From the NCBI GenBank assembly GCA_025350325.1, contig JANXYB010000012.1:1-64000 (forward strand): DNA of 64,000 nt, read 5' to 3'. Below the pieces are notes generated by a model. The model was given only the letters and a program-made list of their open reading frames with translations. It was not told the origin of the DNA and ran no database searches. The position numbers and the translations under genes are program-made. This document shows positions 1 through 7,029 of the stretch, one piece after another; position 1 is the first letter of the stretch; the number at the start of each line of letters is the position of its first letter. This stretch comes from Acidobacteriaceae bacterium (GTDB lineage: Bacteria > Acidobacteriota > Terriglobia > Terriglobales > Acidobacteriaceae).

Positions 1-366
1 GTTGTGGCATCAGAAGCGCTATTCGGCGTAAGGGCCGGCGACTGGAGTCACAGGAGATGTCGCAATCTAGTTCGTGGCCCATCCGACGTGTGTATTGGGC
101 CGGATCGCAATTACGACCACCCCCTCCCCCCCTATTTCTGGATGGAAGTAGTTTATTTTCTGAAGCTTGCGAGTGCCTGCGCGCGCTAAAATTCTGATTC
201 CATTGAAGTTACTCGCAGAAATTTGATAATAAGGGGGTTACGGGTAGCATTGGAAGATACCTTGGTTCTTCAACTGGAATACGCTCACAACGATTGTGCT
301 CCATGATTAGATAATTTTCTGTAAAGGGATGAAGTGTGTCGGCCGGACACGTAATGCAGGGTAGAA
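1..366. other. Non-coding stretch before the repeat array
   Basis: I see no gene here. The only open frame (4-189) begins at a GTG near the window edge, has no ribosome binding site in view and encodes nothing recognisable. The DNA from about 190 to 366 is more AT-rich than its surroundings. No hairpin followed by a T run and no promoter-like pair of hexamers stood out. Confidence 0.5.
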
Positions 367-920
367 CGCGGACTTATTTCGGAGTTGACGGCGCGGCTGA
401 AGCCGCACCCCTGCAAACGTCGTGTTCAGATCCCGTGCTTCCCACCCTTGGTCCCATCTCGTAGTGTTCAGGTCCGTGCTTTACCACCCATAGTGCGTCA
501 TGGCTGGGGGCACGCTGCAGGATTCCCTCGGGGGCTGAAGCCCGGACCTTATTTGTGGCGTTGACGGCGCGGCTGAAGCCGCGCCCCTTCAAACGTCGTG
601 TTTAGGTCCGTCCTTTCCCACCTTTGGTCCCATCTCGTAGTGTTCAGGTTCGTGCTTTACCACCCATAGTGCGTCATGGCTGGGGGCACGCTGCAGGATT
701 TCCCTCGGGGGCTGAAGCCCGGCCTTATTTGTGGCGTTGACGGCGCGGCTGAAGCCGCGTGCCTTCAAAACGTCGTATTAGGTCCGTCCTTTCCCACCCT
801 TGAGGCACCCGGCAACGGCTGAATTGCGCCCTCTCAGAGCCGAGTCGATGCGAGTCGTGTTTAGGTCCGTGCTTTCCCACCCTTGGTCCCATCTCGTAGT
901 GTTCAGGTTCGTGCTTTCCA
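367..920. repeat. 176-bp tandem repeat array with palindromic cores
   Basis: Three copies of a 176-bp unit follow each other; the marker GACGGCGCGGCTGAAG begins at 387, 563 and 739. The third copy is interrupted after about 800, and the tail of the unit (GTGTTTAGGTCCGTGCTTTC onward) reappears from about 857 to 918. Each unit holds two hairpins: a long one at 390-409, 566-585 and 742-761 (perfect form GGCGCGGCT-GA-AGCCGCGCC at 566-585), and a short one GGGCT-GA-AGCCC at 530-545 and 707-722. Minus-strand open frames across it simply translate the repeat. Its function is unknown; it resembles REP/BIME-type intergenic repeats in style, but no transposase is present in the window. Confidence 0.9.
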
Positions 921-1089
921 AGCCCCTGAGGCACGCCCGGTCTCACTGCGGGGTCCCCACGGACAGGTCTTCGCCCGTGGGGTGGGACTCGCGCCTGTTC
1001 TCTTGAATGCGGATAACTGTAATTATTTCTCATTCGTGGGTTGCAGCAGGCCGGGTTGGCGGCATCCAAACGCGGGGAGGTATCGAAAC

Positions 1090-1488
1090 GTGGGATTTTT
1101 AGATTCAATCGAAAACGCGGCCGGCCAAGGTGGCGGCGCGAATGCAAAGGTTGCTGGCGGCCTGATGCAGGCGCTCGATGAACATCCGGGCGGGCTCGCT
1201 GGCGTGATGCAGCACTTTCGCGAAAACGGCATGCAAAACGAGGTTCAGAACTGGTCCAGCGGTCAGGAAACTTCGGCTTCTCCTGAGCAGGTGCAGCAAG
1301 GGCTCGGCAATACTGGCTTCATCGATCGTGTCGCCGGTAAGGCGGGCGTTTCGCCTGAAGTGGCCAAGATTGCTATGGCAACCGTACTGCCGCTGGTGAT
1401 GTCGCATTTCACCGCTGGTGGGCAGCAGGCTCCGCCTCAATCCGGGTTCGGCGGAATGGCGTCGCAGATCCTGGGCAAATTGTTCTAA
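1090..1488 (+). CDS. YidB/DUF937-like small protein
   Basis: A 132-residue protein starting at GTG 1090, chosen because GGGGAGG (1074-1080) lies nine bases upstream; the frame is open further upstream but runs through repeat DNA. It begins VGFLDSIENAAGQGG and shows the Gly/Gln-rich helical pattern of the YidB/DUF937 family, including a GFIDRVAGKAGVSPEVAK segment and a PLVMSHFTAGG segment, then a Gly-rich tail ending in QILGKLF. The family is widespread and its biochemical role is unclear. There is no signal peptide. It sits alone between the repeat array and a secreted-protein gene in the same direction 105 bases later. Family assignment is from sequence pattern only. Confidence 0.75.
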   Translation: MGFLDSIENAAGQGGGANAKVAGGLMQALDEHPGGLAGVMQHFRENGMQNEVQNWSSGQETSASPEQVQQGLGNTGFIDRVAGKAGVSPEVAKIAMATVLPLVMSHFTAGGQQAPPQSGFGGMASQILGKLF

Positions 1489-1593
1489 CCCTAAATAATG
1501 TTCTACATGCGACCTGTATTCGGTTAGTCTTATGACCGCGCTGAAAGCTTGCGTTCAATTAAACGTCGTTCACTCACCAACTAAGGAGAAAAT

Positions 1594-2178
1594 ATGATCA
1601 ATAGGATACTTGCAGTCGGCTTGACGGCTTTTGTGTTCAGCCCTTTCCTCAGTCTCGCCCAGGCCCCCGCAGCAGTTACGGGGCAATGTAACGACGGAAC
1701 TTACACCACGGCTCCTTCAAAATCCGGAGCCTGCAGCGGCCATAAAGGCGTGAAGATGTGGAACGGCAAACCGACGGCGGCAACGAAGACCAAATCCGCT
1801 GCCATGAAGACCGAGGATGCCACCAAGACAGCAGCCATGAAGACCGGGGATGCGACCAAGACTGCAGCGGTGAAGACCGGGGATGCGACCAAGACCGCAG
1901 CGACAAAGACCGGCGATGCCACCATGAATGCAGCAGATAAAACCGGGGACGCTACCAAGTCGGCGGGAATGAAGACGAAGAACAGAGCAGGAGCTGCAAT
2001 GACTACCGAGGCTCCAGGCGGAGGCCCCGGGATGGTATGGGTCAACACTTCGTCAAAGGTTTATCACTGCTCAGGAAGCACCTATTACGGGAAGACAAAA
2101 GAGGGCAAGTATATGACGGAGTCCGACGCGATGAAGATGGGCGCGAAGGCAGACCGCGGCAAGCCCTGCATGAAGTAA
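1594..2178 (+). CDS. Secreted Lys/Ala-rich protein with 11-residue repeats
   Basis: A 194-residue protein with a clear signal peptide (residues 1-23, cleavage probably after SLAQA). TAAGGAGAAAAT lies directly before the ATG. Residues 30-57 contain two Cys in a pattern like the DUF3761 domain (QCNDGTY...SGACSGHKGV). Residues 66-129 are five full and one partial copy of an 11-mer close to TKTAAMKTGDA. The C-terminal 48 residues have two Cys and a VYHCSGSTYYGKTKEGKY core, ending GKPCMK, a small domain I have seen in other exported proteins but cannot name. The protein probably acts outside the cytoplasm, perhaps binding a polyanion or protecting the envelope; this is inference. A terminator follows at 2306. 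Confidence 0.8.
   Translation: MINRILAVGLTAFVFSPFLSLAQAPAAVTGQCNDGTYTTAPSKSGACSGHKGVKMWNGKPTAATKTKSAAMKTEDATKTAAMKTGDATKTAAVKTGDATKTAATKTGDATMNAADKTGDATKSAGMKTKNRAGAAMTTEAPGGGPGMVWVNTSSKVYHCSGSTYYGKTKEGKYMTESDAMKMGAKADRGKPCMK
1789..1980 (+). repeat. 33-bp coding repeat (11 residues)
   Basis: In-frame tandem repeats inside the secreted protein gene. Units at residues 66-76, 77-87, 88-98, 99-109 and 110-120, plus a partial one at 121-129, follow the pattern T-K-x-A-A-x-K-T-G/E-D-A. The third and fourth copies are almost identical in DNA, suggesting recent expansion. Confidence 0.9.
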
Positions 2179-2305
2179 CTCAGGCCGGGCGGCGCGGGGT
2201 GGCTGCGGCGCAGGGGACTCGTAGGGATGCATATCTGCTCATGGCGATTTTGGCTCCTTATCCGCGCGCTGCCGGATTGGATTCAGTGAAGTTGTTAGTA
2301 CGCGT

Positions 2306-2345
2306 GTGACTCGCCCGACCAAGTCAGGCGAGTCACTAACCTTTT
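2306..2345 (+). terminator. Rho-independent terminator after the Lys/Ala-rich gene
   Basis: A perfect 10-bp stem, GTGACTCGCC (2306-2315) and GGCGAGTCAC (2327-2336), with an 11-nt loop, is followed by TAACCTTTT. It lies 128 bases after the stop at 2178. The rest of the gap 2179-2570 holds nothing else that I can recognise. Confidence 0.75.
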
Positions 2346-2570
2346 AGGCCAGCGTTATTCAAAGAACGCGCTGCGTTGTCGTGAAGGTCGAACGTCTCGC
2401 TGCGGCCTGACATGTTTCCAGCCTTTTATTACAAATTTTGGATGAGCCGCCCAACCGCTTGCTTCCCCCGGAAGCCATACGAAAGCGACGGCGAGTGTAG
2501 TACATCTAACCAAGTAGCGAGCGATGCCGGGCGACATTGCAGGCATTGCAAGAGCAACCAGGAGGCTGAG

Positions 2571-2828
2571 GTGGGTGCAGAAGATTTTGTGGTTGAGCAT
2601 TCTGAAGTCTATTCAACGAAGCACGTGAACGAGACAGTGTATCTAGGCCGCGACGAAGCCAAGAAGTGGTGGCTGCTACGCGGCAAGAGCGGCACTCCGA
2701 TTGAGATCGAAGGCGACATTGCGGAGGAGGCGCAGGCGGCCGCTCACCAGTTGATCGATGGCGAGAATGCCTGCGTGCTGCAGATAGAGTGGAAGCTGAT
2801 TCCAAAGGTTGAGACGACCAATGTGTAA
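2571..2828 (+). CDS. Small hypothetical protein
   Basis: An 85-residue protein starting at GTG 2571, supported by GGAGG at 2561-2565 with a five-base spacer. The frame stays open back to 2412, but that part reads as unlikely protein and has no ribosome binding site. The protein is acidic and soluble, with a WWLLRG core and a likely beta-alpha fold; no family is recognised. It ends 75 bases before the methyltransferase gene and may share its transcript. Confidence 0.6.
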   Translation: MGAEDFVVEHSEVYSTKHVNETVYLGRDEAKKWWLLRGKSGTPIEIEGDIAEEAQAAAHQLIDGENACVLQIEWKLIPKVETTNV

Positions 2829-2903
2829 ATTGCGGCGGTCGCGCCTGCGTTGATCTTTGTGGCTTGTATCTCAAGATGAACTGAAGTGGCTGGCGAGGTT
2901 GCA

Positions 2904-3728
2904 ATGGCAATTTCCGACTTACAGATGCAACACGTAAAAGAGTCGATGCGCGCCACGTGGATGTCTGGCGATTTCGGCGTGGTGGCCAAAACAATTGCCA
3001 GCGATGCGGAGGCTTTTGCCAGGCGGCTTGCGATTCCCAATGGAGCGCGAGTGCTCGACGTAGCGACCGGCACCGGCAACTTAGCCATACCACTGGCCCG
3101 CAGTGGCGCGATCATCACGGGGGTAGACATCGCTCCCAACCTTGTTGCGCAGGCGCGTGAGCGCGCAGCGGCCGAAAACCTTACCGTCTCCTTTGATGAA
3201 GGCGATGCGGAGGAACTACCGTACGCCGATGGCGCTTTCGATGCCGTTGTGAGCATGTTTGGCGCAATGTTTGCACCGCGTCCGGCATTGGTGGTGGCGG
3301 AGTTTGCCCGGGTGCTCAGGCCGGGCGGATTGCTCGCAATGGCCAATTGGAATCCCGCCAGTTTTTCCGGCCAGATGTTCGCGGTCAGTGCGCGCCATGC
3401 TCCACCTGCGCCCGGAATCGAGCCTCCTGTGCTGTGGGGAGACGCCAAGACGGTGACGGAGCGCCTCCGCAATCAATTCACTAAAATCGAAACGCGAATT
3501 ATTCCAATCGTGTTTGATCTGCCGGCCAGTGCTGCCGGGGTGGTAGCGTTTTTCCGCAAATACTTTGGGCCAACTCAGGCTGCGTTTAATCGTCTCGATG
3601 CGCAAGGTCAAGCGAGGCTGACCGCGGACCTTGAGGGTCTGTGGTCGAATGCCAATGTAGCGGCAGATCCCGCCGAGCACGTATTGATTCACAACGAATA
3701 TTTGCAGGTCACGGCTATTCGGGTGTAA
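2904..3728 (+). CDS. Class I SAM-dependent methyltransferase
   Basis: A 274-residue Rossmann-fold methyltransferase of the UbiE/Methyltransf_11 type. Motif I is VLDVATGTGNLAIPLA (about residues 46-61), followed by a GVDIAP motif II acidic end and an EGDAEELPYADGAFD stretch typical of the family; RVLRPGG marks the post-motif region. ATG 2904 is preferred over GTG 2886 because GAGG sits seven bases before it. The C-terminal part (FFRKYFGPTQAAF) is seen in relatives that act on small molecules. The substrate cannot be deduced. It follows a small hypothetical gene and is followed by the 43-bp repeat array. Confidence 0.85.
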   Translation: MAISDLQMQHVKESMRATWMSGDFGVVAKTIASDAEAFARRLAIPNGARVLDVATGTGNLAIPLARSGAIITGVDIAPNLVAQARERAAAENLTVSFDEGDAEELPYADGAFDAVVSMFGAMFAPRPALVVAEFARVLRPGGLLAMANWNPASFSGQMFAVSARHAPPAPGIEPPVLWGDAKTVTERLRNQFTKIETRIIPIVFDLPASAAGVVAFFRKYFGPTQAAFNRLDAQGQARLTADLEGLWSNANVAADPAEHVLIHNEYLQVTAIRV

Positions 3729-3785
3729 ACCGGCTGCGGAGAGAGGCTGGGCTTCAGAGGGACTGGTTCAAAATGGAAGCCCGCA

Positions 3786-3944
3786 GGGGCTAAAGCCCCA
3801 TCGATTTACGGGCTTTATCGGCACGACTAAAGTCATGCCCTGTTACAAAGCGCTCAATTATCGGTACGACTAAATTCATGCCCTGTGACACGGCGGTCAA
3901 TTATCGGCACGACTAAAAGTCATGCCTGTTACAAAGCGCTGAAC
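3786..3944. repeat. 43-bp tandem repeat with hairpin cores
   Basis: A leading hairpin GGGGCT-AA-AGCCCC (3786-3799) is followed by three 43-bp units starting at 3815, 3858 and 3901. Each unit contains a palindrome near GGCACGACT-AA-AGTCATGCC (3820-3839, 3863-3882, 3906-3926). The layout of the palindrome matches position by position the 20-nt hairpin of the 367-920 array. The array fills the space between the convergent methyltransferase and HD-GYP genes (3729-4015); no gene is seen in that gap. Confidence 0.85.
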
Positions 3945-4015
3945 TGTTTGTAATTGTGGCGCGATGCGCTGGATTTGGGGATAAGGCAGAGGCGCAGCTT
4001 TTTGGAATAACGGTG

Positions 4016-5191
4016 CTAGCGGGAGGGGGCGCCAAACGTCGAGAAGCTGCGATTTTGTCCGGTGATTTCGGTTCGCAATTCAAGCCATAACTCATTGGGG
4101 ATCTTCAAGTAACTCTCGACTACGGCGGGATCGAACTGGGTCCCCGAACAGCGCACAATCTCTTCTCGGGCTGCATCGAAGGTGCGCGATACGCGATACG
4201 GACGGTCGCTGGTAATTGCATCGAGTGCATCCGCCACCGCGAAGATGCGCGCGCCGACGGGAATGCTGCTCCCCCTCAATCCGCTGGGATAGCCGCTGCC
4301 GTCGAAATGCTCCTGATGGGTGAATACGATCTCGGCAGCTTCGCTGAGGAAAGGAATTTTGCGCAGCATCTGATAGCCGCGGGTGCAATGCTCGCGCATC
4401 ACGTCTTGCTCTTGATGGGTGAGCTTGCCGGGTTTGCGGAGGATTTCGTCAGGAATGGCCATCTTGCCGATGTCGTGCAGGAAAGCGCCGCGCGCAATGA
4501 TTTTGATTTCGGCGGGTGAGACGCCGATGGCCCGGGCCAAGGCAATCGTATAAGCCGTTACGCGCTTGGAGTGGCCCTCGGTTTCGGAATCTTTAAGATC
4601 GAGCGCGTCGCCCAGAGCCTCGAGAGTGACATCATAGGAGTGTTCGAGGTCTTCCATTGCCTGGCGAAGCATTTCGGTGCGGGCGCGGACGACCTGTTCC
4701 AAGTTTTGCTGGTAAGTGTGATTCTCTTGCAGTGCGTGGCGGTGATCGAGGGCACGCTGAACTGTAGCGATGAGGTGCTCGCGTTCGAACGGCTTCAGCA
4801 GGTAGTCGTAAGCTCCACGACGCATCGAGTCGATGGCCACACTGATGTCGTGGATGGCAGTGACCATGATGACGGGAAGATTGGGATGCTCGGAATGGAT
4901 TCTCTCAAGCAGCGCGAGCCCATTGCCTTCCTGCATGACGATGTCGGTCAGGATAAGCTCGAAGGAAAACTGGTCGAGCGCTTCCATAGCTTCACGGCCG
5001 CATGACGCCAAATGGACCTCATAGCCCTGTCGCTCGAGAGTAGCGCCAATCATCGATCGAACGTGTGCCTCATCGTCGACAACCAGCACACGGGTGGACT
5101 TGCGCAACTTCGCGGCTGCGCGAGGATCTTCCTTCAAAACTTGGGGCGGCGGTGGATTCGGTGATCCCAGGATTGCCACTTTCGATGCCAA
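4016..5191 (-). CDS. Response regulator with HD-GYP domain (RpfG-like)
   Basis: A 391-residue two-domain protein. Residues 34-150 form a receiver domain with DD at 39-40, phospho-acceptor Asp83 (LILTDIVMQ) and Lys133 in LLKPFE. A coiled segment (about 150-190) leads to an HD-GYP domain: FLHDIGKM puts HD at 239-240, and HQEHFDGSGYP at 292-302 is the signature, with Gln replacing the second His of the common HHE form. Family members hydrolyse cyclic di-GMP in response to phosphorylation. No partner kinase is adjacent; the nearest histidine kinase is at 38.2 kb. The first 33 residues are a low-complexity Pro/Lys leader. Confidence 0.9.
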   Translation of the reverse strand: MASKVAILGSPNPPPPQVLKEDPRAAAKLRKSTRVLVVDDEAHVRSMIGATLERQGYEVHLASCGREAMEALDQFSFELILTDIVMQEGNGLALLERIHSEHPNLPVIMVTAIHDISVAIDSMRRGAYDYLLKPFEREHLIATVQRALDHRHALQENHTYQQNLEQVVRARTEMLRQAMEDLEHSYDVTLEALGDALDLKDSETEGHSKRVTAYTIALARAIGVSPAEIKIIARGAFLHDIGKMAIPDEILRKPGKLTHQEQDVMREHCTRGYQMLRKIPFLSEAAEIVFTHQEHFDGSGYPSGLRGSSIPVGARIFAVADALDAITSDRPYRVSRTFDAAREEIVRCSGTQFDPAVVESYLKIPNELWLELRTEITGQNRSFSTFGAPSR

Positions 5192-5595
5192 GCCCTTACC
5201 TCTCGCGGTTCCCGTTCACGTAGATGCTCGGAGCCGGCATCATCGATTTGGTCTTCTTGCACAGCAATTCACTGCTTGGCGGCGAAGGGACCAATGTTAC
5301 ATACAGAATAAGTCTCGCCCGAGCCATATGTGCGGGTTAAGTCTCATTTCTTAGTCAGCCAAGTTTGACTATGCTTAGAGTTCGGCGCACATTCGTATCT
5401 AACCGTGTGTCACTTGAGTCGCTGACTTAGATCATAACGTAAGGACAAGTTACGCTTACTCAAAGACCTACGCAAGACCTTCCTGATCGCGAACCAAAGT
5501 ACTAAAGTCTTACATCGCGCTTAGGAATTCGTGTTTCCTCTTTATAGCGCTAGTACCGCTATCTGACGTGGTATCTACTTAGAAGTCGGCGAGCG
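5192..5595. other. 404-bp intergenic region upstream of the HD-GYP gene
   Basis: No gene is seen. The region is noticeably AT-richer than its neighbours and lies between the end of glmU and the start of the HD-GYP regulator, both on the minus strand, so it presumably carries the regulator's promoter. I could not identify clear -35 and -10 hexamers or a terminator for glmU. Confidence 0.5.
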
Positions 5596-7029
5596 TCATT
5601 GGGACTTAGTCTCTGCTGCCTTGCGCGCGCGGCGTGCACTGGCCCAACCCTCTTTGGTGATCTGGTGGGCGCGACCTACAGCGAGTGCGCCGGCGGGCAC
5701 GTTGTGGGTGATACAGGAGCCCGCCCCGATATACGCGCCATCCTCGATCGAGATCGGCGCAACCAGGGTGGAGTCGCTGCCGACAAACACTCCCTGACCG
5801 ATACGGGTGACGTGTTTATTTACTCCATCGTAGTTGCAGGTGATGACGCCCGCGCCGATATTCGTGCCTGCTCCGACCTCAGCATCGCCCAGGTATGTGA
5901 GATGGTTGGCTTTGGCGCCTTTACCGAGGCGCGTTTTTTTGGTTTCGACGAAGTTGCCGATGTGGGCGTCTTCGCCAATTTCGCTGCCCGGACGCAAGTG
6001 GGCGAAGGGGCCTATTTTCGCACCATCGGCTACCCTGCTGTCGGCAAGTATGCAGCTTTGGCGCAGCAGCACGCGGTTGCCAAGCGTGCAATTCTCGACC
6101 ACGGAATAAGAACGAATATGGCATTCGGTACCGATGCGGGTGCGGCCGAGCAATTGCACAAAAGGCTCGATGACGGTATCGGGAGCGACCTCGACCTCGG
6201 CGTCGATGACGCATGTGTCGGGCCGGAAGATGGTAACTCCGGTGGCCATGAGGCGGGTGGCAGTGGCGGCGCGCAAACTGGTATCGAGTGCGACCAACTC
6301 GGCTATGGTGTTGGCGCCAAGGACTTCTGCCGCCTGGTCGATTTTGAGGGCGACCACTCGCTCGCGGGCGGCGCGCAGCAAGCCGGCCATGTCAGTCAAG
6401 TAGAGTTCACCCTGAACGTTGTTGGCGGTGAGCTGGGCGATGTGCGCGAGCAAGGGCGCAGATTTGAAAGCATAGATGCCGGAGTTGATTTCGCCGATGG
6501 AAAGCTGATCCGGGGCGAGGGCCTTTTGCTCGACGATGGCTGCAACTTCGGGAGATGAGGGGGCTGCGCGCACCACGCGGCCGTAGCCGGTTGGATCGTC
6601 CGGCACAGCGGAGAGGATAGTCATCGCGGCCTGCTGCGCCTGGTGAAACTGAATCAGGTGTCGAAGGGTTTCGGTGCGGATCAGAGGAACGTCGCCGGAC
6701 AGCACCAGCACATTCTGATAGCCCGCAATGGCGGCGCGCGCACATTGAATGGCGTGGCCAGTGCCACGCTGTTCCGGCTGATCGACGAATTTGATTCCGG
6801 TTGAGGCCATTGCTTCGCGGACGCGTTCTGCCTGGTGGCCCACCACCGCGTAAATGTGGGCCGGATCTACCAGGCGGCTGGCCGCGGCGACTACATGGGC
6901 GAGCAGCGGCCGTCCACCGACCTCATGCAGCACCTTGGGCCGTCTGGACTTGAGTCGCGTTCCTTTGCCGGCCGCCATGATAACGATCGCAAGTGAGTCT
7001 GGTTGAGTGCTATTTGGTATTTCACTCAT
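5596..7029 (-). CDS. glmU: Bifunctional GlmU (UDP-GlcNAc pyrophosphorylase / GlcN-1-P acetyltransferase)
   Basis: A 477-residue protein that acetylates glucosamine-1-phosphate and then uridylylates it to UDP-GlcNAc, the precursor of peptidoglycan and LPS. The N-terminal nucleotidyltransferase has AAGKGTRL at 19-26, RPKVLHEVGG, QRGTGHAIQ and LSGDVPLI. The C-terminal left-handed beta-helix has many hexapeptide repeats and the acetyltransferase segment KANHLTYLGDAEVG with the catalytic His. Length is normal for the family. Its start overlaps the stop of the upstream M16 gene by four bases (ATGA), so it is translated as the last gene of a three-gene operon. Confidence 0.97.
   Translation of the reverse strand: MSEIPNSTQPDSLAIVIMAAGKGTRLKSRRPKVLHEVGGRPLLAHVVAAASRLVDPAHIYAVVGHQAERVREAMASTGIKFVDQPEQRGTGHAIQCARAAIAGYQNVLVLSGDVPLIRTETLRHLIQFHQAQQAAMTILSAVPDDPTGYGRVVRAAPSSPEVAAIVEQKALAPDQLSIGEINSGIYAFKSAPLLAHIAQLTANNVQGELYLTDMAGLLRAARERVVALKIDQAAEVLGANTIAELVALDTSLRAATATRLMATGVTIFRPDTCVIDAEVEVAPDTVIEPFVQLLGRTRIGTECHIRSYSVVENCTLGNRVLLRQSCILADSRVADGAKIGPFAHLRPGSEIGEDAHIGNFVETKKTRLGKGAKANHLTYLGDAEVGAGTNIGAGVITCNYDGVNKHVTRIGQGVFVGSDSTLVAPISIEDGAYIGAGSCITHNVPAGALAVGRAHQITKEGWASARRARKAAETKSQ

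Follow-up and report, generated by a model that had tools for sequence, protein, structure and literature searches.

Repetitive extragenic palindromes (REPs) are common repeats whose spread is poorly understood, and co-evolution with their REPs has been described for two groups of TnpAREP transposases (PMC8266576). Canonical REPs carry GTAG or GTGG close to the hairpin foot (PMC6006769). From Acidobacteria, Di Nocera 2013 described TIRtrons, in which TIRYT genes, similar to those of REP-associated tyrosine transposases (RAYTs), are flanked by inverted repeats; the terminal inverted repeats (TIRs) of ORF1552 of K. versatilis are a repeated family, and a figure legend refers to "double palindromic TIRs" (PMC3733652). 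TnpAY1 proteins of class 3, which go with atypical hairpins, were also reported in Acidobacteria, with about 600 repeats in Solibacter usitatus (PMC6006769). These statements, and the comparisons below, follow portions of the three papers. The stretch analyzed here, referred to as the window, comprises 64,000 nucleotides of an Acidobacteriaceae bacterium (assembly GCA_025350325.1, contig JANXYB010000012.1, positions 1 to 64,000) and includes two different tandem arrays with related hairpins. We consider it probable that both arrays derive from a family of REP-type elements found in Acidobacteriota and recognized and dispersed by RAYTs.

Alignment of the copies with their flanks defined a unit of about 83 nt, composed of a short hairpin, a 20-nt main hairpin located about 37 nt to its 3′ side on the same strand, and a conserved 3′ tail. 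The loop of the short hairpin is TRAA, as in the main hairpin. In the window, the main hairpins GGCGCGGCTGAAGCCGCGCC and GGCACGACTAAAGTCATGCC occupy positions 566-585 and 3820-3839, where a first-pass annotation based on the sequence letters had placed them. The same annotation stated that stem pairs 4/17 and 7/14 are G-C in the first hairpin and A-T in the second, and that the short hairpins at 530-545, 707-722 and 3786-3799 keep a CT-RA-AG centre. Both statements were confirmed, the short hairpins having 5, 5 and 6 unbroken pairs, respectively. A further difference, which it did not mention, is that pair 5/16 of the 3820-3839 hairpin is a C.A mismatch, which the other strand reads as a G.T wobble. 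When positions 3780-3855 were folded as DNA, the prediction for that strand included the complete main hairpin, and the minimum-energy fold of the plus strand did not include it in full.

A degenerate version of the 20-mer matched 22 sites in the 4.49-Mb genome to which the window belongs, compared to none for the reversed control. A covariance model, R1, was then built from 20 copies and detected at least 51 copies at E values up to 0.022, a count that is a lower bound because 150 of the 1463 first-look candidates were scored. Using genes called by a home-made codon-usage caller, 48 of the 51 copies were extragenic, against a coding share of 74% for the remaining bases of those stretches; the intergenic excess that the first-pass annotation had proposed to look for is therefore present. 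The copies fall into two main subfamilies according to the tail, CTGTTACAAAG (window 3772-3854) and CTTTCAAA/CCTTCAAA (window 517-600).

The pairing of the main stem was analyzed in 48 of the 51 hairpins, aligned by sequence, against 500 shuffles. Paired cells amounted to 88.0% compared to 82.2% in the shuffles, and cells with changes on both sides numbered 40 compared to 17.2; none of the 500 shuffles reached either value. The two-sided cells belong mostly to pair 4/17 (A-T in 29 copies, G-C in 14) and pair 7/14 (A-T in 22, G-C in 19). Since these two pairs separate the two subfamilies, the 40 cells do not represent 40 independent events in this genome. Pair 5/16 is C-G in 20 copies, C.A in 17 and T-A in 5, and the number of pairs showing any two-sided change was unremarkable, being reached by 111 of the 500 shuffles. 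The earlier proposal of a repeat family evolving under pairing constraint is supported by these results, with the corrections that each unit holds two hairpins and that the two paired changes it relied on are those that split the subfamilies.

R1 matches were found in all 25 genomes of the genus, with 11 to at least 111 copies each, in none of 14 genomes of another family of the order, and in one of two others. In a sample of 151 genomes of the class, the element is present in 82, including all 43 with a strong match to the flanked type of transposase described below (best E up to 1.4e-37) compared to 39 of the 108 others (Fisher 4e-15). Outside the family of the window, the element was present in 21 of 21 genomes with a strong transposase match and in 33 of 101 others (Fisher 2.5e-9).

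The association is also seen at individual loci. Matches to PF01797 (Y1_Tnp) are present in 34 of 41 relatives, and 97 of the 100 matches in the genus plus the outlier genome G039 were inspected. Nineteen of these Y1 genes are bracketed by an inverted pair of elements, with a minus-strand copy no more than 200 bp upstream and a plus-strand copy overlapping the gene end or within 200 bp of it; five more have a copy on one side only. The main hairpin is the outermost in the inverted pairs. The flanked genes belong to certain types, with L146, L194, L172, L156 and L188 as representatives. In L146 the TAA stop codon of the transposase sits in the loop of the short hairpin, and in transposases of the NNSQTYFVTS type (L192-L199) the last residues, for example GTTKVVPFQN, are encoded within the downstream element.

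All three flanked proteins scanned scored above the cut-off of 80 bits on the NCBI model for REP-associated tyrosine transposases, NF047646 REP_Tyr_transpos (102.1, 110.3 and 106.9 bits). The Y1_Tnp domain was found in 15 of 15 proteins, and the HUH histidines and the catalytic tyrosine, the latter within a YIxxNP motif, are conserved without exception in an alignment of 15 flanked or related proteins. The best solved relative of the flanked proteins is TnpArep of the E. coli type (PDB 4er8, E 2e-18). Membership in IS200/IS605 proper was rejected for the same three proteins, which scored 20.6, 38 and 31.1 bits on the IS200 model, below its cut-off of 55.

A contig scan with a 15-sequence transposase alignment recovered at least 493 relatives, and 80 were kept because their titles named Acidobacteria, Acidobacteriota, Terriglobia or members such as Sulfotelmatobacter, Granulicella, Terriglobus or Acidiferrum. 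A strict double-hairpin search detected correctly oriented elements at 58 of these 80 loci (36 on both sides, 22 on one side), compared to none in shuffled sequence; the wrong orientation was found three times upstream and twice downstream. When the loop was left free, 110 of 127 four-base flank loops were TGAA or TAAA. Nineteen loci have no TGAA or TAAA hairpin, and 14 of them have a five-base TNRAA loop.

The stems follow the transposases. In 65 genes, with hairpins selected by their loop, the two flanks of the same gene share 7.2 of 8 stem bases, compared to 5.4 when flanks were shuffled, and the inner four stem bases are identical between flanks in 43 genes compared to 11.4. The 21 stem types of 78 genes require 30 changes on a quick transposase tree, while each of 300 label shuffles required at least 48. 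Each flanked transposase type goes with a distinct version of the element in an unchanged layout. Stems GGCACGACT or GGCCCGGCT go with tails CTGTTACAAAG, CTTGTTACAAAG or CTGACACTT; stems GGCACGACT/GGCACGGCT with tail CTTTCAAA; stem GTACGGGCT with CCTTC; stem GGGGCCT with CTCCCTCC; and stem CCGGGGTT with CCTACC. Sequence comparison thus shows directly the two-hairpin unit and its copies, their bracketing of genes, the family to which the transposases belong and the agreement between stem type and transposase clade.

Association and covariation, rather than an observed move, make recognition and dispersal by RAYTs the best reading of these observations. The target of an HUH-Y1 RAYT would be the folded single-stranded form of the main hairpin together with the tail next to it. 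The strand recognized is probably the complement of the written one, on which the tail lies 5′ of the hairpin, in the position of GT[AG]G in canonical REPs. The enzyme would then cut the folded element and disperse solo units, and selection for recognition would maintain the pairing of the stem while its letters drift along with the transposase. The window arrays would represent two subfamilies, with tails CCTTCAAA and CTGTTACAAAG, tied to different transposase clades; two subfamilies of one element would explain why both arrays share a hairpin template that differs by paired changes. The tandem arrays themselves may be later local duplications. The first-pass annotation had suggested REP-like elements moved by an outside transposase, and the bracketing and the agreement of the stems with the transposase tree speak for that idea, with the movement itself remaining the inferred part. 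On a wider scale, we give about even chances to a large radiated REP-like system of Acidobacteriota, based on a two-hairpin doublet and partly carried by unrelated miniature inverted-repeat transposable elements (MITEs), in which the GT[AG]G guide was repeatedly replaced by other tails and the stems were re-encoded by paired changes in each transposase clade while loop, spacing and layout stayed fixed.

Several observations weigh against the RAYT reading. Of the 143 flanking hairpins, 122 have no canonical tag (GTAG or GTGG within 0-2 nt on the 5′ side of the hairpin) on either strand. A canonical GTAG/GTGG REP is thus ruled out for most clades, and since the tag is missing from most flanking hairpins the element is named REP-type rather than canonical REP, the tag being a property of the [CT]GCA clade only. 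It was found in sense in 2 of the 143 hairpins and in antisense in 19. The latter are all 19 hairpins that have [CT]GCA arms, and their CCACCC tail is GGGTGG on the other strand. We infer from this that the written strand is the antisense of the canonical orientation, with the tail standing in for the guide. Mismatch asymmetry offers thin evidence on the strand. C.A outnumbers G.T by 12 to 2 in the transposase flanks, in agreement with the antisense orientation, and by 26 to 11 in the genome of the window, where 17 of the 26 are one pair common to related copies; 39 hairpins from congeners, with 4 of each, give it no support.

Other points concern the transposases. The genome of the window has three PF01797 matches, one of them cut by a contig end, and none has an R1 match nearby. 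The flanked-type alignment found eight matches in it, the best of which (C133:1643-1903, 97.6 bits) sits between an inverted pair of elements, C133:1520-1606 and 1933-2015 (L022). This sequence is a relic, with 53% over 79 residues to L142-type proteins and the stretch of the HUH motif deleted, and the other seven are fragments or unflanked relatives. The genome-encoded REP-associated transposase that the first-pass annotation had proposed to look for was thus found as relics of the expected type, and no intact flanked transposase is present in this assembly of 160 contigs, from which repeated genes are easily lost. With its transposases being relics, fragments or unflanked, the element population looks orphaned in this genome. 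Four genomes (G039, G064, G165 and G169) have elements and no match to the A2 transposase alignment at 1e-20, G024 has 15 elements and no Y1_Tnp match, and G002, assembled in one contig, has 12 elements and two Y1 genes, both unflanked. The A2 alignment and R1 were built from linked material of the family of the window, and of the genome-level tests only that outside the family is free of this dependence. Among the five one-sided genes, L190 is a fragmentary Y1 gene that belongs to the unflanked type, and the copies beside it all point the same way. At L139 and L182 an additional copy close by has the reverse orientation. NF047646 is also passed by an unflanked Y1 protein (108.6 bits), so that the family name alone is no marker of the flanked type.

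Transposition was not observed, and no clean empty site was found. An orthologous neighbourhood with an HD-GYP-like gene was compared in 13 congeners; 12 had no R1 match at E values up to 0.1 and one had a weak match of 18.7 bits. The identity of the gene, 73-78%, and the contig ends that shorten two of the stretches preclude a clean empty site from that comparison. Another possible mover appears in genome G016, where all 20 copies fetched (L323-L342), which were taken from the best model scores and are not a fair sample, have alongside at least one of two kinds of terminal repeat. These are the ends of MITE-like elements, CAGCCTGTGG..CCACAGGCTG and AAGTGGTTTCATAACC..GGGTTATGAAACAGCTT, with two-hairpin units inside. 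Target duplications were counted for the first kind, and in eight of the nine copies that have both ends the four-base duplications are identical (TTAG, CTAA, CTAG or CTAT), which we take to resemble IS5-type targets. Among 47 matches to the first-kind ends, 38 form 19 pairs 109-111 bp apart and 9 are single; pairing by eye found no pair at the length of an insertion sequence. In the genome of the window, 15 of the 51 copies have a TIR-like module on their downstream side (control, 3 of 51), and this module has four genome-wide matches with one mismatch.

The doublets can, accordingly, also travel on MITE-like elements. A stronger form of this idea is that ordinary MITEs, mobilized by DDE transposases through their terminal inverted repeats, spread the units as components or as passengers, and that the tie to RAYTs is ancestral. 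The G016 repeats and duplications and the downstream module favour it, but it leaves unexplained the inverted bracketing of RAYT genes and the agreement of stems with transposase clades. Moreover, the upstream module in the genome of the window is barely over control (8 compared to 5 of 51 copies) and both sides are found in 4 of 51, and the G016 copies were chosen among the best scores. We regard this alternative as unlikely, although it is the best placed of those considered.

A role in RNA is still less probable. The first-pass annotation had listed RNA hairpins as an option, and the hairpins might have been retained for 3′-end stability, termination or as small RNAs. The copies are indeed structured, extragenic and subject to paired changes, and of the 38 extragenic copies for which both adjacent genes were called, 14 have convergent neighbours. 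Nevertheless, with 18 others between genes on the same strand and 6 between divergent genes, there is no strong orientation to the neighbours, and the patchy presence in the class, tied to a transposase, is not that expected of such a role. A known RNA family was rejected, as no Rfam match up to E 0.1 was found in window positions 1-6000, and the option found no support. Finally, chance palindromes in two unrelated tandem repeats, which the location of both window examples within arrays might suggest, can be dismissed with near certainty, as the first-pass annotation had argued, in view of the genome-wide matches against the empty reversed control, the presence in all congeners and the conserved loop, spacing and tail.

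Returning to the family of REP-type elements proposed here, the copies mapped in the two arrays of the window lie on the plus strand. Tandem Repeats Finder delimited a 176-bp array (369-802, 2.5 copies), each unit of which has a short and a main hairpin, and a 43-bp array (3815-3940, 2.9 copies), consisting of main hairpin, tail and a short spacer. R1 identified in the first a weak copy of 25 bits (345-424, main hairpin 390-409), a copy of 72 bits (517-600, short hairpin 532-543, main hairpin 566-585, tail CCTTCAAA) and one of 57 bits (694-776, short hairpin 709-720, main hairpin 742-761). At the second it identified a copy of 85 bits (3772-3854, short hairpin 3786-3799, main hairpin 3820-3839, tail CTGTTACAAAGC at 3840-3851) and a partial copy of 22.5 bits (3871-3940, E 0.018), whose main hairpin at 3906-3926 has a five-base loop. 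From the sequence letters and the array, a degenerate second copy of the main-hairpin half was located at 3863-3883.

The 3′ half of the main hairpin and the tail are tandemly repeated not only at window 3815-3940 but also beside C54:3957, C58:8910, C91:111, C96:18275 and C108:11776; local array formation is thus recurrent in this genome. A further hairpin-like repeat, TTCGTGCTTTCCCACCCATGACTGCGTCATGGATGGGGCACCCGG, is often found immediately 5′ of the short hairpin. It is part of the 176-bp unit (window ~482-515 and ~659-692), occurs also upstream of C17:20474, C94:20117 and C91:111, and forms with the short hairpin a mosaic layout resembling bacterial interspersed mosaic elements (BIMEs). A 33-bp tandem repeat at window 1801-1959 is located inside an open reading frame (1594-2178) and encodes KTGDATKTAA-like repeats in a short, secreted-looking protein.

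One bacterial class would thus hold many matched transposase/hairpin pairs that differ by paired stem changes and by tail, with a GTGG-tagged clade beside untagged ones. Such matched pairs make the recognition rule testable by swaps of stem and tail. The family accounts for a common kind of extragenic palindrome in the genomes of abundant soil bacteria, and searches demanding GTAG or GTGG would miss most of these elements. If the radiated doublet system proposed above is real, it would be a natural record of an HUH transposase changing its recognition code.

Among known systems, IS200/IS605 elements share with the unit the subterminal hairpins adjoining an HUH-Y1 gene, but their copies are direct while those flanking the genes described here are inverted. 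Class 3 of TnpAY1 is characterized by a Y----Q motif and a CnGA foot (PMC6006769), unlike the flanked proteins with their YIxxNP motif. The TIRtrons have, as found here, a RAYT-like gene between inverted repeats (PMC3733652). Unlike in some TIRtron TIRs (PMC3733652), the sequence GGGGWSAS was not present in inverted arrangement at any of the 80 loci, so that this type of TIR was rejected; in any flank it was found at 6 of 80 loci, about the background rate. The portions of Di Nocera 2013 considered here (PMC3733652) contain no description of a conserved loop, a tail series or a match between stem and transposase, and, within the parts of the matching literature covered, we recognized no description of this two-hairpin family beyond the TIRYTs of that paper. 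The 80 loci kept include no K. versatilis record. Compared by description and not by sequence, the unit may belong to the same family as the Acidobacteria TIRtrons. In the REP/REPtron system (PMC6006769, PMC8266576), multicopy extragenic palindromes likewise occur and inverted copies bracket an HUH-Y1 gene; in addition, as in that system, the transposases pass the REP-associated tyrosine transposase model, the stems co-vary with the transposase and one clade has GTGG at the hairpin foot. The unit differs from the REPs described in these sources in being made of two hairpins in one orientation, in its TRAA or TNRAA loops and in the general lack of GT[AG]G. The elements of the window are best described as a variant, found in Acidobacteriota, of the known REP/RAYT kind, possibly overlapping the "TIRtrons" reported in 2013.

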